Of a DNA stretch of 64,000 bases, positions 21,472 to 28,448 are shown in pieces. Position 1 is the first letter of the stretch. Every line of letters starts with the position of its first letter. The notes beneath the pieces were generated by a model. That model saw only the letters and a list, made by a program, of their open reading frames with translations, did no database searches and had not been told where the DNA came from. Made by a program: the position numbers and the translations under genes. Source of the stretch: Arcobacteraceae bacterium (GTDB lineage Bacteria; Campylobacterota; Campylobacteria; Campylobacterales; Arcobacteraceae); assembly GCA_021107755.1 (NCBI GenBank), contig JAIOSF010000009.1, forward strand, positions 1-64,000, written 5' to 3'.

Positions 21472-22143
21472 TTATACTTTTAAGATATAGCCTTCACCTT
21501 TAATAGTTTGTATCTCTAAATCAGGTATTTTTTTTCTTAATCTGAAAAGTAATTGTCTCCTGTTTTCATCATAAGTGCTATACTCGTGCCATACCACTAA
21601 ATCTACATATTCATTGGTGACAACTTGATTTTTATTTTGTATTAATATATGTAAAAATTGTTCCTCTTTTTTTGTTAAGTTTATTGCTTCATTATTTTTG
21701 AGTAAAACCTTATTTTGGATATCATAAATATACCCATTGTTAAGTTCAATTGGTTCTAATTTATTATTAAGACCAAATCGAAAAGAGGCGAGTTTTACTT
21801 CTCGAAGAAGATGTGCATCTAAATATGGTTTTACAATATACCCCGTAAAATTAACGCTAGAAGCATCAGAAAGTGTGTTGTCATCATGATATGATGTTAA
21901 AAATATAACTGGAACATTGAAGTTCTTTTGGATAAGTTTTGCTGTTTCAATTCCGTTGAGTTCACCTTTGATATTGATATCTGCAATGATAATATCAACA
22001 TGATCTTTGAACATCACCTCTAAAGCAGTCTCACTTCTATTTGCTATAGCAACCACATAATATCCAGCCCACTGTAAAGTTCTTTTCATTTTTTGTGCAG
22101 TTAATGTTGTATCTTCTATGATTAATATATTTACCTTTTTCAT
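21472..22143 (-). CDS. Response regulator of the adhesin/HD-GYP locus
   Basis: A 223-residue receiver plus winged-helix regulator. The receiver has IIEDT at its start, Asp in IIADINIKG, the LTSYHD switch Thr/Ser, and Lys in YIVKPY. The DNA-binding domain (~140-223) shows LTKKEEQFLHIL and RQLLFRLRKKIP, ending GEGYIL. It is divergent from the 7TM histidine kinase, its likely partner. Its own promoter carries the same tandem TAACG box as two promoters downstream of the kinase, so autoregulation and control of that locus are inferred. The -10 lies only 6 bp before the ATG, implying a leaderless mRNA. Confidence 0.92.
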   Translation of the reverse strand: MKKVNILIIEDTTLTAQKMKRTLQWAGYYVVAIANRSETALEVMFKDHVDIIIADINIKGELNGIETAKLIQKNFNVPVIFLTSYHDDNTLSDASSVNFTGYIVKPYLDAHLLREVKLASFRFGLNNKLEPIELNNGYIYDIQNKVLLKNNEAINLTKKEEQFLHILIQNKNQVVTNEYVDLVVWHEYSTYDENRRQLLFRLRKKIPDLEIQTIKGEGYILKV

Positions 22144-22149
22144 ACTAGT

Positions 22150-22181
22150 ATTCTATCACTTCTGCGTTATATTTACCGTTA
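22150..22181 (-). promoter_or_regulatory. Tandem TAACG operator and -10, copy 1
   Basis: On the minus strand TAACG occurs at 22181-22177 and 22169-22165 (12-bp period). After 9 nt comes TAGAAT at 22155-22150, then ACTAGT and the regulator's ATG. Spacing matches copies 2 and 3 exactly. Confidence 0.8.
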
Positions 22182-22209
22182 TATTGTAAGAATATCACTT
22201 TTTTTATGT

Positions 22210-22215
22210 TAGAAT
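22210..22215 (+). promoter_or_regulatory. -10 box of the 7TM histidine kinase gene
   Basis: TAGAAT 19 bp before the ATG at 22235, with AAAGAG as ribosome-binding site. The TAACG boxes of the divergent promoter lie about 30-45 bp upstream and could affect both directions. Confidence 0.5.
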
Positions 22216-22234
22216 TTAATTAAAAAAGAGTTTT

Positions 22235-24094
22235 ATGCGTTATATCATTATTTTATTAGTTTCTTTATATGTCAACTTACAAGCAACTATTTTTGTCAAT
22301 ACACAAGATACAATAGAGCTACTCCCCAACTCCAAAATCTATCATGATATAGGCAATCAAGAAACTATAGACACGATTTTACAAAATACTCATAAACTCA
22401 CCTCAAGCAATAAAAATGCCATAGATTATTGTAACTTACAACCAGAGGGAGTATGGATAAAATTTCAGCTTCACAATCCAACAAATAAAACTATACAAAA
22501 GATTTTAAAAATAGACAATTTCTCTACAGAAAGAATTGATTTATATAAAGTTTCAAATAACAAAGTATTATCAAAAAAAACAACAGGTATTTATCATCTT
22601 GAAAAATTTCATGGTCTTGTTACACTTAATATTCCAATTGATATCAAAGCAAATAGTTATGAGATGTATTATTTGAATGTAAAAAATGAAAAACTCTCAC
22701 TATGGTTCAAGCCAGAGCTTTATGAGCCAAAAGTATTTTATAAAGAAGATACTTTTTGTCAAATTATATGGGCACTTTTTTTTGGCGGTATTTTTTCTCT
22801 TATTTTGTATAATGTTTTTTTATTTATCTTTACAAAAGACAAAATCTATCTCTATTATTTCTTATACTTAATCGCAACTTTACTGCAAGGTCAATTCTCA
22901 ATATACCCAAAACTCTATTTTTTTCCTATGGAAGATATTGAGTTTGTGAAAAAAAGCTTATCTTTTAATGTTTTTTATGTCAATGTTTTTGTGACTTTTA
23001 CAATGACTTTATTTATAAGAAAGTTTTTAGATACTACTCTTTATCCTAAGATTGACTTTAGTTTGAAGTTTCTTATTTTTATTATTCCTGTGTATTATGT
23101 TTTACAACTATTTCATATTTTTACCATTCCACAAGTCGTACTTTTTCAGTTTCTTACTCCTTACTATTTTTTATGGATAGGTTTTTATGCTTTATACAAG
23201 AAAAACCCTCAAGCAAAATTTTTCTTATTAGGATGGAGTTTTGCTCTTTTAGCATGGTTATCTCTATTTTTTAAATTTTTAGGACTATTACCTGAACAGT
23301 ATGTATTTACTTATACCTTTGAAACTCTCATTATGACAGAAGTTATTTTATTTGCTATATTTTTAGCATATCGCATTAAAACATTAGAAAAGAAAAAAAA
23401 CAATTTAACAAAATCACTTTTAATACAACAACAAAATGAATCTATGCGCTTAGAAAAAATCGTAAATAAAAGAACCCAAGAGTTAAACAGCGAATTAAAA
23501 CAAAATGCACTCTTACTAAAAGAGTTACATCATCGTGTGAAAAACAACATGCAATTTATCACTTCACTGTATGCACTTAAACTCAATGATAATAACGATG
23601 AACTTATTCAAGAAAAACTCCATGATGTGGAGAGAAAAATTCACGCCATGAGTATAGTTCATCAGATGCTTTACAATCAAAAAGATATTGTAAATATTGA
23701 TGCCAAAGAGTATTTTGAAAAAGTTTTACAAAACATAAAAAACAGTTTTGAACTTGAAAATATCACATTTGAACTTGATATAAACTCTCTTCTTGACACA
23801 GAAGAGGCTATATATTGTGGTCTTATTGTCAATGAACTGGTTACCAATGCTATCAAACATGCTTTTGATTCAAGGGGAGGAGTTATAAAAATCTCACTCA
23901 ATAGTGTTGATAATGGGACACTATTAGAAGTTTCAGACAATGGTATTGGGAAAAGTCATAACACAGAAGCAAGCTTTGGTGAGATGATGATTGAATCACT
24001 TGCAACTGACCAGCTAGATGGAAATCTTCAAGTAGTAGTTGATCATGGAACACACATCTCTTTATGGTTTAAAAACAAAATACAAAAAAAGTAA
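22235..24094 (+). CDS. 7TM-DISM sensor histidine kinase (HisKA_2 type)
   Basis: A 619-residue membrane kinase. A signal peptide (~1-18) is followed by a periplasmic 7TMR-DISM extracellular domain (~25-175, with the WIKFQLHNPT block). Seven transmembrane segments follow at ~180-385, then a coiled stretch. The HisKA_2 dimerisation motif LLKELHHRVKNNMQ lies near residue 430. The ATPase domain has GLIVNELVTNAIKHAF (N box) and VSDNGIGK (G1). It probably binds an extracellular ligand, perhaps a carbohydrate, and phosphorylates the divergent response regulator. Its stop codon overlaps the first TAACG box of the next promoter. Confidence 0.92.
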   Translation: MRYIIILLVSLYVNLQATIFVNTQDTIELLPNSKIYHDIGNQETIDTILQNTHKLTSSNKNAIDYCNLQPEGVWIKFQLHNPTNKTIQKILKIDNFSTERIDLYKVSNNKVLSKKTTGIYHLEKFHGLVTLNIPIDIKANSYEMYYLNVKNEKLSLWFKPELYEPKVFYKEDTFCQIIWALFFGGIFSLILYNVFLFIFTKDKIYLYYFLYLIATLLQGQFSIYPKLYFFPMEDIEFVKKSLSFNVFYVNVFVTFTMTLFIRKFLDTTLYPKIDFSLKFLIFIIPVYYVLQLFHIFTIPQVVLFQFLTPYYFLWIGFYALYKKNPQAKFFLLGWSFALLAWLSLFFKFLGLLPEQYVFTYTFETLIMTEVILFAIFLAYRIKTLEKKKNNLTKSLLIQQQNESMRLEKIVNKRTQELNSELKQNALLLKELHHRVKNNMQFITSLYALKLNDNNDELIQEKLHDVERKIHAMSIVHQMLYNQKDIVNIDAKEYFEKVLQNIKNSFELENITFELDINSLLDTEEAIYCGLIVNELVTNAIKHAFDSRGGVIKISLNSVDNGTLLEVSDNGIGKSHNTEASFGEMMIESLATDQLDGNLQVVVDHGTHISLWFKNKIQKK

Positions 24095-24153
24095 CGGTAA
24101 AAATAACGCAAGCTTAATATAATACTTAAAAATAAAAAAGAGATTCCTCTCTT
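24092..24153 (+). promoter_or_regulatory. Tandem TAACG operator, -10 and leader hairpin, copy 2
   Basis: TAACG at 24092-24096 and 24104-24108 (12-bp period), 9 nt, then TATAAT at 24118-24123. The leader carries a 6-bp hairpin, AAGAGA / TCTCTT with loop TTCC, at 24138-24153. The segment resembles copy 3 over about 75 bp up to the start codon. Confidence 0.8.
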
Positions 24154-24173
24154 CTTAATTCAAGGTTCATATT

Positions 24174-25364
24174 ATGAAACAACTTTTTATGACTGAGATT
24201 TGTAATATAAATGTTCAATGCATATATTTTTTGTTAATATTTTTGATTATCATAATTTTACTTCTAATCATTTATTATAAAAAGAATTTTAAAAAAATTT
24301 TTACTAAAAATACTAAAGAGATTGAATCATTAATTCAATCTTATAGTAAAAATGTTATTGCTTCTAAAACCGACACAAAAGGTATTATTACTTATACGAG
24401 TGAAGCTTTTGAAAAAATCTCTGGTTACACAAAAAAGGAACTCTTAGGAAAACCTCATAGTATCGTCAGACACCCAGATATGAGTAAAGAAGACTTTAAA
24501 AATATGTGGTCAACTATACAAAAAGGTCATACTTGGCAAGGTGAAGTTAAAAATAAAAAGAAAAATGGGGAGTATTATTATGTCAAAGCAACTATCTCTC
24601 CTATTTTTAATGAAGAAAATGAAATCATAGGATACAGTGCAATAAGGGAAGATATTACTCAACACAAAAAAATTGAAGAATTGAACAAACAGTTAGCTAC
24701 TTATAAAAAACACTTAGAAGATAGAGTTAAAAAAGCAACCTCTCATATTGAAGAATTAATAATAGAAATTGAAGATACTCAAAAAGAAGTTATATTTACT
24801 ATGGGAGCTATAGGAGAAAGAAGAAGTGAAGAGACAGGTTTACATGTAAAAAGGGTGGCTGAATACTCAAAACTTCTTGCTCTATATTATGGATTAGATG
24901 AAAAAGAGGCAGAAATGTTAAGACAAGCCAGTCCAATGCATGATATAGGGAAAGTGGGGATTGCGGATTCTATTTTAAATAAACCAGGATTTTTTACTCA
25001 AAAAGAGCATGCAATAATGCAAGAACATACTACTTTAGGCTATAACATGATTAAGTCATCCAAAAGGCCAATACTTCAAACTGCTGCCATTGTTGCACAT
25101 GAACATCACGAAAGATGGGATGGAAGTGGTTACCCAAATGGATTAAAAGGTGAAGGGATTCATATTTATGGAAGAATTACAGCTGTTGCTGATGTTTTTG
25201 ATGCTTTAGGAAGTGATAGAATTTATAAAAAAGCGTGGGAAGATGAAAAAATATTTCAACTCTTTATGGAGGAGAAGGGAAAGCAATTTGATCCTGTGTT
25301 AGTTGATATCTTCTTTGAACATATAGATGAGTTTTTAGATATTCGAAACAAACTCCAAGACTAA
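24174..25364 (+). CDS. PAS and HD-GYP domain protein, probable c-di-GMP phosphodiesterase
   Basis: A 396-residue inner-membrane protein. One N-terminal transmembrane helix (~15-36) is followed by a PAS domain of aerotaxis type (~55-165; FEKISGYTKKELLGKPHSIVRHPDM). A coiled coil comes at ~165-205, then an HD-GYP domain (~200-390). The metal-binding HDIGK, the EHHERWDGSGYP signature and VADVFDAL are intact, so c-di-GMP hydrolysis is likely active. PAS suggests redox or oxygen sensing. It lies under the second TAACG promoter, so it belongs to the local two-component regulon. Confidence 0.92.
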   Translation: MKQLFMTEICNINVQCIYFLLIFLIIIILLLIIYYKKNFKKIFTKNTKEIESLIQSYSKNVIASKTDTKGIITYTSEAFEKISGYTKKELLGKPHSIVRHPDMSKEDFKNMWSTIQKGHTWQGEVKNKKKNGEYYYVKATISPIFNEENEIIGYSAIREDITQHKKIEELNKQLATYKKHLEDRVKKATSHIEELIIEIEDTQKEVIFTMGAIGERRSEETGLHVKRVAEYSKLLALYYGLDEKEAEMLRQASPMHDIGKVGIADSILNKPGFFTQKEHAIMQEHTTLGYNMIKSSKRPILQTAAIVAHEHHERWDGSGYPNGLKGEGIHIYGRITAVADVFDALGSDRIYKKAWEDEKIFQLFMEEKGKQFDPVLVDIFFEHIDEFLDIRNKLQD

Positions 25365-25385
25365 AATATATGAAAAGAAAAAATA

Positions 25386-25417
25386 TAACACCAAATATAA
25401 CGCAAGCTAAATATAAT
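25386..25417 (+). promoter_or_regulatory. Tandem TAACG operator and -10, copy 3
   Basis: TAACA at 25386-25390 and TAACG at 25398-25402 (12-bp period), then 9 nt to TATAAT at 25412-25417, as in copies 1 and 2. The leader again contains an AGAAG / CTTCT hairpin ahead of AAAGGA and the ATG at 25471. Confidence 0.8.
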
Positions 25418-25470
25418 ACTTGAATAAGACAAAAGAAGAACTTCTCTTCTGTTTATTAAAGGATTATGTT

Positions 25471-26715
25471 ATGAAATTAACAAATAAATACTTACTCACT
25501 TTGAGTTTTTTCTTTATCCCTTTTTCCATAAGCTTTGGAGAAACTTTAGAGAATAATCTTTATTCTCTTAATTCTAAAGATAATGGTTCAGAGGTAAGAG
25601 TATTTGGTGTGGGGGAAAAAAGCAATGATAAAACCTACTCAGGACTTGGAATTGAGTACAAAGATGACCAAAGCCAAGCAGGGTTAGAGAATGGAGATGA
25701 ATATCAAAAACTCTACGGTGTCTATAAATATGCGCTTCCACAAAGTTTTTATATCAAAGGTGGACTTGGGTATTTAAAAAAAGAGGTACTCTTTGGGGCA
25801 GATAATATTGATATTAAGCAATACACACTGGGAACCTCTGTTGGTTGGGGAGATGATAAAAACTACAACATAGAACTTGGATATGTGGGAAATAAACTGC
25901 GTGATGCGTATGAAGCCAATGGTTATACCAACACTGCTTACATTGAAGCTTTGGGTCAATATGAACTTGAATTTACCAAAGATTGGGGAACTCTTGAAGC
26001 CATGCTCACATACCAAAACTCACATGTTTATCATAACAACTATTCAGGTCTGATTGCCCAAGGGGCATATTATCCCATAGAAGATATACGAACTTTTGTA
26101 CAATATAACGATGCTTTACAAACCGATGAAAACGATTATCGCATCACACTGGGAGTAAAATATGCCTTTGCTTCAAAAACTTGGTCCCCCATATTAACTG
26201 CTCAAGCGAATACTTCAAACTCTGTGTCATATGGCATTGTTTATGATGAAGATATTGAAAATGATCCGTTAAGTAACCGAGACTTCTTTGAAAGCCAAGT
26301 AAGTACTACCACTTTTAAAGCACAAGAGTTGGCTTCCAATGAGTTCAATCAACGATTAAATAAGAGTCTCAATCCTAGACAAAAACCAAATGTAGAACCA
26401 AGTAATTCTGCTCCTACAGGAGAGAGTTTCACCGTCAGTGCAGGATGGACCAAAAGTGTTACTGTAGACTTAAGTTCACACATCCATGATGCTGATGGCG
26501 ACGCACTTACAATAAATATTGTGGGAAAAAGACATATTGGTGGTCTTCCTTACACCATTACTGTGACGAAGTCAGGCACCAATGTAACAGTAGCTTACCC
26601 TACAAGCGTAGGATTACCTACTTATGAAACTTTTCAGGTTATGTATACCGTCAGTGATGGGGAAAATACAAGTGAAGTCTATACTATGACAATTGCACAT
26701 CTAAAATTGTCATAA
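25471..26715 (+). CDS. Outer-membrane beta-barrel protein with C-terminal Ig/cadherin-like domain
   Basis: A 414-residue exported protein. A signal peptide (~1-25, ending ISFGE) precedes an N-terminal beta-barrel-like region (~30-240) with repeated amphipathic strands. A linker (~245-305) leads to a C-terminal Ig-like domain whose SSHIHDADGDALT motif is typical of cadherin-like/VCBS-type repeats. ATG 25471 follows AAAGGA; a TTG in frame at 25420 lies at the predicted transcription start and is unlikely. Barrel first, exported domain last is the order of inverse autotransporters. It is controlled by TAACG copy 3 and may be co-transcribed with the next gene. Confidence 0.75.
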   Translation: MKLTNKYLLTLSFFFIPFSISFGETLENNLYSLNSKDNGSEVRVFGVGEKSNDKTYSGLGIEYKDDQSQAGLENGDEYQKLYGVYKYALPQSFYIKGGLGYLKKEVLFGADNIDIKQYTLGTSVGWGDDKNYNIELGYVGNKLRDAYEANGYTNTAYIEALGQYELEFTKDWGTLEAMLTYQNSHVYHNNYSGLIAQGAYYPIEDIRTFVQYNDALQTDENDYRITLGVKYAFASKTWSPILTAQANTSNSVSYGIVYDEDIENDPLSNRDFFESQVSTTTFKAQELASNEFNQRLNKSLNPRQKPNVEPSNSAPTGESFTVSAGWTKSVTVDLSSHIHDADGDALTINIVGKRHIGGLPYTITVTKSGTNVTVAYPTSVGLPTYETFQVMYTVSDGENTSEVYTMTIAHLKLS

Positions 26716-26786: not shown

Positions 26787-28448
26787 ATGAGTAAAAAAAA
26801 TATTTTCTTTATATCTTTAATATGGATATTGTTAGTAATAACAAACGCCATAGCACGAGACAAAGAAAAAAAATGGCAACCATTCTTAGATGTAGAAAGT
26901 AAATTGGGAAGTCACCGACACTTAGGGGAAGTAGATGTTTTTATTCCTATTTTACAAAACAAAAATACTCTTTTTTATACAGATATTCGTTATAGACTAG
27001 ATAATCAAGATAGTCGTGAAGGAAACTATGGTTTAGGGATACGACACATCTTGCCAAGTGATTGGATTATTGGTGGTTACACCTATTATGATAGGCGTAA
27101 AACTCCTTACAATAACTATTTCTCTCAAATAACGGCAGGTCTTGAAGCACTCTCAGTTGATTGGGACTTTCGTGCAAATGTTTATATTCCTACAGGTAAA
27201 AAAAGCTACCTTGAAGAATCACTTAGTAGTGTAAGTTTTACAGGTACTGATATCATGTATGCTCAAGGTGAAGAACGTGCAATGAAAGGATATGATGCTG
27301 AAATTGGCTACAGGTTGCCTATTTTCGATGAAAGTAAAGAGCAACAAATCCGTGTCTATGCAGGTGGTTATCGTTTTTATGAGAACAATGTTCCATCCAT
27401 ACAAGGGCCAAGAGGTCGTATTGATATAACTTTTGATGATATCTCTTATCTTTGGGAAGGATCAAGGCTCACATTAGGAGCAGAGATACAAAAAGATGAT
27501 ATAAGAGGGAAACAAAGTTTTGCATCACTTCGTATTCGTATACCTTTTGGAACTAAAAAAAAGAAGAAGAATACTCCTCACCAAGAACTAACTCCAATCG
27601 AAAAGCGTATGACCACGCCTATTATTCGTGATGTGGATATTGTCTCTCAATCAGGTGTTTTTGAAGCGCCTAAAAAAGTTACTACTGATGCCAATGGAAA
27701 CCGTATTAAATTTGTAAAAAGCGATTCAACAACAGGTGCAACTTTAACATCAACCATTGAAAGTGCAGGAGAAAACTCTACGGTTGTTTTAAGTGGGGAT
27801 TTCAGTGGTGTTGATTCATACACATCACTCAAAGAGGGACAAACTATTATTGGAGGTGGGAGTATAGGTATCACCACTCCAGCGGGGAAAAAAGTCTCGG
27901 TGCTTGTTCCTAATGCATCCATAACAGGAAAAGGCTCGTATTTCGGAAATGCTAATACCTTCTTTAATATGGCAAATAATAGCAGTCTTATAGGTATATC
28001 CGCCAACCTCAATCATACTGACCCTGCATCAGGGACGAATATGTTTTATATAAATAATGTTCATAATGTCACTATCAAAAACAATAACTTCTCTTTGAAT
28101 GCATCAGATGGTACAAATTTGTACATGACCACCATCATTGATTCAACAAATGTTTATATTGGAAACAATACGATGAATATGAACAGTGATGGAGATTTCT
28201 CATATTTTATGAGCGTTTTAGGTCGTCAGAATAATAATTTTACTGTTGAGAAGAATGCTTACAATGTTTCAGGAACAGCCCTTCCCATTAGAACTTTCTA
28301 TGTTTATAGAACAACCATTGAAAACTTAAAAGGTTCAGGCAATACAACTAATCTGAATGCTGCTCAAATGAGGACTTGGGATGGAGATTCAAGTATCATC
28401 AATGGAAGTATCAGTTTTACCAATGGATTTACTGTAACATTGCCTTAG
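26787..28448 (+). CDS. Inverse autotransporter-like adhesin with beta-helix passenger
   Basis: A 553-residue protein. Residues 1-23 are a signal peptide. Residues ~30-260 match the intimin/invasin inverse-autotransporter barrel (YGLGIRHIL, DWIIGGYTYYD, LSVDWDFRANVYIP). The basic linker and EKRMTTPIIRDVDIV are the usual transition to the exported part. Residues ~310-553 repeat short Asn-rich strand units (NNVHNVTIKNNNF, DSTNVYIGNNTM) typical of a right-handed parallel beta-helix of the pectate-lyase/NosD type. Surface adhesion or polysaccharide binding is inferred. AAAAAAGGT precedes the ATG; no separate TAACG box is seen, so it is probably transcribed with the preceding gene. Confidence 0.85.
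   Translation: MSKKNIFFISLIWILLVITNAIARDKEKKWQPFLDVESKLGSHRHLGEVDVFIPILQNKNTLFYTDIRYRLDNQDSREGNYGLGIRHILPSDWIIGGYTYYDRRKTPYNNYFSQITAGLEALSVDWDFRANVYIPTGKKSYLEESLSSVSFTGTDIMYAQGEERAMKGYDAEIGYRLPIFDESKEQQIRVYAGGYRFYENNVPSIQGPRGRIDITFDDISYLWEGSRLTLGAEIQKDDIRGKQSFASLRIRIPFGTKKKKKNTPHQELTPIEKRMTTPIIRDVDIVSQSGVFEAPKKVTTDANGNRIKFVKSDSTTGATLTSTIESAGENSTVVLSGDFSGVDSYTSLKEGQTIIGGGSIGITTPAGKKVSVLVPNASITGKGSYFGNANTFFNMANNSSLIGISANLNHTDPASGTNMFYINNVHNVTIKNNNFSLNASDGTNLYMTTIIDSTNVYIGNNTMNMNSDGDFSYFMSVLGRQNNNFTVEKNAYNVSGTALPIRTFYVYRTTIENLKGSGNTTNLNAAQMRTWDGDSSIINGSISFTNGFTVTLP

Follow-up and report, generated by a model that had tools for sequence, protein, structure and literature searches.

A tandem TAACG promoter box tied to an OmpR-type response regulator and to predicted surface protein genes in Campylobacterales

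Three promoters in one locus of an Arcobacteraceae bacterium share a tandem direct repeat, TAACG-N7-TAACG, that lies 9 nt upstream of a -10 element and precedes the genes for a response regulator, a PAS/HD-GYP phosphodiesterase and a predicted surface protein. Comparison with related genomes strongly supports, short of proof, a tie between this box and the OmpR-type response regulator encoded in the same locus. We consider it likely that the regulator, driven by its kinase, activates the boxed promoters in a PhoB-like class II manner and so controls its own gene, the phosphodiesterase gene and surface protein genes. Both the components and the mechanism belong to known kinds, and the regulon is new.

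Promoters and genes of the locus

The window, that is, the whole stretch of DNA that was analysed, is 64,000 nucleotides long. The locus has the following features.

21472-22143, minus strand: response regulator, 223 aa, REC (PF00072) and winged-helix Trans_reg_C (PF00486)
22144-22149, minus strand: 6 nt between the -10 element and the regulator ATG; same spacing in 11 of 11 orthologous loci
22150-22155, minus strand: -10 element TAGAAT of the regulator promoter; TANAAT in 11 of 11 orthologs
22150-22181, minus strand: site 1, regulator promoter, TAACG-GTAAATA-TAACG-CAGAAGTGA-TAGAAT-ACT; 5' to 3' from 22181 to 22150, TAACGGTAAATATAACG cagaagtga TAGAAT act
22165-22181, minus strand: box 1, TAACG-N7-TAACG, upstream of the response regulator; both units invariant in 11 orthologs
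22207-22215, plus strand: predicted extended -10, TGTTAGAAT, for the divergent kinase gene; the block upstream is largely kept in orthologs
22235-24094, plus strand: sensor histidine kinase, 619 aa, divergent to the regulator; 7TMR-DISMED2, 7TMR-DISM_7TM, HisKA_2/HWE and HATPase
24092-24108, plus strand: box 2, TAACG-N7-TAACG, upstream of the HD-GYP gene, its start overlapping the kinase stop codon; conserved in G011 (L090:9264)
24092-24123, plus strand: site 2, HD-GYP gene promoter, TAACG-GTAAAAA-TAACG-CAAGCTTAA-TATAAT-ACT; 5' to 3', TAACGGTAAAAATAACG caagcttaa TATAAT act
24118-24123, plus strand: -10 element TATAAT of the HD-GYP promoter
24174-25364, plus strand: PAS and HD-GYP protein of 396 aa with both the HD and the GYP motif, a predicted c-di-GMP phosphodiesterase
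25386-25402, plus strand: box 3, TAACA-N7-TAACG (one mismatch), upstream of the surface protein gene
25386-25417, plus strand: site 3, surface protein gene promoter, TAACA-CCAAATA-TAACG-CAAGCTAAA-TATAAT-ACT; 5' to 3', TAACACCAAATATAACG caagctaaa TATAAT act
25412-25417, plus strand: -10 element TATAAT of the surface protein gene promoter
25471-26715, plus strand: predicted surface protein, 414 aa, with a signal-peptide-like N-terminus and a C-terminal bacterial Ig domain (Big_9)
26787-28448, plus strand: inverse autotransporter (IAT_beta, PF11924), after a 71-nt gap behind the 25471-26715 gene

The spacing given in an earlier, sequence-only reading of this DNA, 12 bp between the unit starts, 9 nt before the -10 element and then ACT, was read directly at all three sites. 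Its description of two TAACG units per promoter held for sites 1 and 2 and failed at site 3, whose first unit reads TAACA, a variant also present in G011 (L090:10517). It had further compared the sites with the direct repeats "near 11 bp" that are typical of OmpR-family regulators; the direct repeat over the -35 region was borne out, and the period had to be corrected to 12 bp. With the -10 element counted at its usual -12 to -7, one TAACG unit spans about -38 to -34 and the other about -26 to -22, so that the pair straddles the -35 position. The three promoters have no recognisable TTGACA.

The pattern is rare. Four repeat pairs with at most one mismatch were found in the window against 0.79 expected, a number reached by none of 100 shuffles, and the exact full pattern occurred twice, with about 1e-5 expected in the window if its parts are taken as independent. 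Throughout the 2.62-Mb genome, sites 1-3 were the only sites with two or fewer mismatches to the full pattern; the next matches had three mismatches and were background, rarer than those of a reversed-pattern control. The genome-wide search proposed in the sequence-only reading thus returned three good matches, all in this locus, and not a scattered background. Near a contig end, an inverted pair of TGACGCNATATGTGACGCC-type repeats (G000:C22:101093-101124, minus strand, and 101930-101961, plus strand; L106) has the 12-bp architecture of the TAACG boxes with one base different (TGACG). These repeats were dropped, since no regulator adjoins them.

The regulator belongs by its domains to the OmpR/PhoB family: PF00072 (2.4e-20) and PF00486 (4.8e-10) are both over cut-off, it matches OmpR-family structures along its full length, and the REC phosphoacceptor and partner residues are present on inspection. 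The putative direct-repeat target over the -35 region, a further mark of the family, was found in 11 of 11 orthologous loci. In the PhoB equivalog test (NCBIfam TIGR02154), the regulator scored 63.7 bits, below the cut-off of 296.2, so it would be PhoB-like in its working and is not PhoB itself.

The kinase carries PF07696, PF07695, PF07568 and PF02518, all over cut-off, which places it in the 7TMR-DISM HisKA_2 class. The presence of 7TMR-DISMED2 suggests that the ligand is extracellular and may be a carbohydrate. The kinase gene divergently adjoins the regulator gene in 11 genomes, and it is from this conserved adjacency that we infer their pairing. In G016 (L091:15277-17158), the kinase is split into two frames, possibly a pseudogene or a sequencing error; the regulator and boxes there are intact.

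The product of the HD-GYP gene matches PF13487 (4.7e-29) and has HDIGK and DGSGYP in its translation, which assigns it to the HD-GYP class with a predicted activity. The 25471-26715 product had been labelled a beta-barrel/Ig protein. The Ig part agrees with the Big_9 domain at its C-terminus, and a profile test of this product gave no match to the IAT_beta domain (PF11924); an AlphaFold model made with two sequences had a mean pLDDT of 27.6 and gave no confirmation of the beta-barrel part. The gene behind it, at 26787-28448, encodes an inverse autotransporter (type Ve), with PF11924 in its N-terminal part (7.6e-20). It has no box of its own, and related copies in G011, G028 and G093 each have one. 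It is probably read from the box-3 promoter together with the preceding gene.

Co-occurrence of box and regulator across genomes

Orthologous loci were fetched from 10 relatives by the regulator protein alone (75-87% identical), giving 11 loci with this genome, and were scanned for TAACG pairs at every spacing from 5 to 30. Each of the 10 held exactly one TAACG pair, with a 12-bp period and 9 nt from TANAAT, and none held a pair at any other spacing in that range. No TAACG pair was found in 28 loci of other response regulators (0/28). Taken over all fetched regions, the spacing histogram showed 46 pairs at 12 bp; it was not used as evidence, since many of those regions had been fetched by motif.

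Such likeness could also reflect descent alone, a promoter cassette having been copied in front of several genes that have no common regulator. The target promoters are alike beyond the box (AGCTAAATATAATACTT) and in the leader, so copying likely occurred. As the whole explanation it is scarcely credible, since it leaves unexplained why the two TAACG units are invariant in the 11 orthologous loci whereas the surrounding sequence has drifted, why the box stands at regulator promoters of otherwise different sequence, and why box and regulator co-occur.

We surveyed 399 genomes across the order and called the regulator subfamily at E <= 1e-38. The strict box was present in 15 genomes, 13 of which also encode the subfamily; 30 of the 399 encode it. 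The association gave a Fisher p of 1.4e-14 with genomes treated as independent, an optimistic value because the genomes are related. The reversed-pattern control gave 4 hits in the same genomes versus 31 for the box. The strict boxes in G145 and G301 were discarded as chance matches; they lie inside reading frames, and the regulator subfamily is absent. Within genus g19, strict boxes are present in all five ortholog-bearing genomes and absent from the 11 that lack the ortholog. Thus, in the relatives, where the sequence-only reading had suggested a motif search, the box tracks the regulator subfamily. In another family, f20, boxes flank the regulator-kinase pair in five genomes (G402, G229, G239, G326, G347) whose regulators are 36-51% identical to the one described here; in G402 (51%), a box stands immediately before the regulator gene.

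Box-carrying regulators have in common a recognition-helix core, RRQ-[LV]-x-[FH]-R, and the box-less paralogs in this genome have RRTFIYR, LRTLIYR or IRGSIFR in its place. The subfamily members G020, G005 and G036 have no strict box and also carry RRQL, so the core is not sufficient.

These results bear on an inference of the sequence-only reading, that the regulator binds the boxes. The contrast of 10/10 with 0/28 loci, the 13 of 15 genomes and the common helix core argue for such binding; the imperfect unit of box 3, the subfamily members with no strict box and the 12-bp period, compared with the usual 10-11 bp of OmpR-family sites, count against it. The suggested autoregulation and the two other targets gain support from the presence of these boxes in the nearest relative, G011. 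It is very improbable that the element is instead an alternative sigma promoter class, with TAACG in the -35 region, or the site of an unlinked regulator of which the two-component genes are merely members. The -10 and flanking sequence common to all three promoters would suit either, and Arcobacter butzleri has several ECF sigma factors (PMC3445524); however, the element comes and goes with the regulator subfamily, both among the 399 genomes and within one genus, the -10 is of the sigma-70 type, and a tandem direct repeat suits a winged-helix dimer.

Target genes and leaders

In genomes with the ortholog, boxes stand before the regulator gene and before genes for exported surface proteins. 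It lies before TpsA exoproteins (TPS domain, 1000-1540 aa) in G016, G032, G065, G085, G093 and G103, several of these genes adjoining a TpsB transporter, and before a TpsA N-terminus only, at contig ends, in G021 and G096. Inverse autotransporters follow the box in G011, G028 (on another contig) and G093, and classical autotransporters in G016, G085 and G096. Among more distant genomes, it precedes an autotransporter in G196, TpsA and TpsB in G326, TpsA in G402, and Slam and a TbpB-like lipoprotein in G229 and G347. The HD-GYP gene is a box target in this genome and G011 only. There are exceptions: a box in G028 (L094:7007) has no evident target gene, the target in G239, a multi-domain protein of 1297 aa, is not evidently a surface protein, and genes of other kinds follow unlinked boxes in G229 and G347. 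As judged from the predicted products, the common theme of the targets in the wider family is surface-exported proteins. The regulon had been called local. This is so in this genome; in the wider family it is not merely local, since unlinked inverse autotransporter and autotransporter genes carry the box.

Two further observations were made in these genomes. An unlinked box, TAACGCAAGACGTAACG, is kept in both G229 and G347 (L144:9707, L145:9980); the gene behind it encodes a protein of 459-460 aa that matches TPR weakly and is possibly a further regulon member. In addition, G085 (L100, G085:C6) and G103 (L098, G103:C2) each have a second, paralogous kinase-regulator pair, with TAACGCAAGACRTAACG boxes before autotransporter and TpsA genes; this suggests duplicated systems with near-identical sites, between which cross-talk is possible.

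The 6-nt distance from the -10 element to the regulator ATG, found likewise in G402, means that transcription should begin at the ATG or within a base or two of it, and we predict from this spacing that the regulator mRNA is leaderless. Leaderless mRNAs with TAnAaT -10 elements just 5' of the ATG are documented in C. jejuni (PMC3847290). For the HD-GYP, surface protein, TpsA and autotransporter genes, the leader is in most cases about 40-50 nt long and contains an AAGG ribosome site. One may speculate that a leaderless, self-activated regulator could be translated while leadered mRNAs compete poorly. Possible stem-loops occur in the leaders at 24124-24173 and 25418-25470, with arms that differ between the genes and stay complementary; their z-scores averaged about -1.2 over 13 related sequences, and we make no claim for these hairpins.

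Proposed control and its relation to known systems

We propose that the 7TM sensor kinase (22235-24094) would phosphorylate the OmpR-type regulator (21472-22143), which would bind the two TAACG units as a head-to-tail dimer centred at about -36 and -24 from the predicted start. The bound dimer would replace or overlap the -35 contact and recruit sigma-70 RNA polymerase to the -10 element 9 nt downstream. In this way the regulator would activate its own leaderless gene, a positive feedback, and also the c-di-GMP phosphodiesterase gene and the surface protein gene with the inverse autotransporter behind it. Across Campylobacterales, the pair of regulator and box may control whichever exported surface proteins a genome holds.

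The 9-nt phase is fixed at linked and unlinked genes, which favours activation through polymerase contact over repression. Repression, in which a dimer bound over -35 to -22 blocks polymerase and its release or dephosphorylation turns the genes on, would tolerate drift in this phase, and we regard it as unlikely; that the promoters have no recognisable TTGACA also speaks against it. In its favour, the boxes overlap the polymerase position, the -10 elements are near consensus (TATAAT), and ArsR of H. pylori shows that repression of adhesin genes and of its own gene is within the reach of an OmpR-type regulator (PMC9449129). The missing -35 does not by itself imply an activator, since Campylobacter sigma-70 promoters often have none.

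Activation as proposed here has a parallel in E. coli, where PhoB contacts sigma region 4 and the pho box takes the place of the -35 region; both systems have a winged-helix regulator and tandem direct repeats in place of the -35, upstream of a sigma-70 -10 element (PMC4971064). The period differs (11 bp in the pho box, 12 bp here), and phosphate is not implicated here. Within Campylobacterota, the PceS/PceP system of Sulfurospirillum is likewise composed of a kinase with a periplasmic N-terminal domain and seven transmembrane helices and an OmpR-family regulator, with a small regulon around its own genes and direct repeats (PMC7755780). As a precedent, PceP was shown by EMSA to bind direct repeats, most of which overlap the -35 box, and removal of either repeat abolished binding (PMC7755780). 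However, PceP controls organohalide respiration, not surface proteins, and its repeat is CTATW-N17-CTATW, with units 11 bp apart and a central copy (PMC7755780). The sites found here, TAACG-N7-TAACG, do not match this PceP-regulon site.

The DccRS system of Campylobacter jejuni, whose repeat consists of TTCAC units, differs in both targets and repeat. It resembles the present system in that an OmpR-type regulator activates a handful of genes for periplasmic and membrane proteins (PMC9449129). A plasmid of A. cryaerophilus carries a filamentous haemagglutinin gene as well as a response regulator beside a 7TMR-DISM kinase (PMC6690266). Searches of the literature on DccR with direct repeats and on TAACG gave no prior description of the box. 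In Bordetella, a TpsA exoprotein (FHA) and autotransporters are likewise under two-component control, by BvgAS. The regulator BvgA belongs to the NarL/FixJ type, the kinase BvgS is a hybrid of another kind, and no common descent is claimed. No regulator of adhesin-like exoproteins (TpsA, autotransporters) in Arcobacter-like bacteria was described in the literature searched, nor was there a prior description of this regulator, its box code or a surface protein regulon in that literature, most subscription papers being outside its scope.

Somewhat more tentatively, we favour the view that this is a widespread switch for surface display in Campylobacterales, in which one regulator subfamily and TAACG-N7-TAACG-N9-TATAAT would be fixed across families, the regulator gene being leaderless and self-activating, while TpsA/TpsB, classical and inverse autotransporters and Slam-exported lipoproteins would replace one another as targets. 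One regulatory switch would then be kept while the export route of its targets changes. The box code may allow regulon members to be predicted from sequence in other genomes, and it offers a testable binding code and a candidate regulator for adhesin-like exoproteins in Arcobacter-like bacteria. In the lineage studied here, the switch would link surface proteins with c-di-GMP breakdown.
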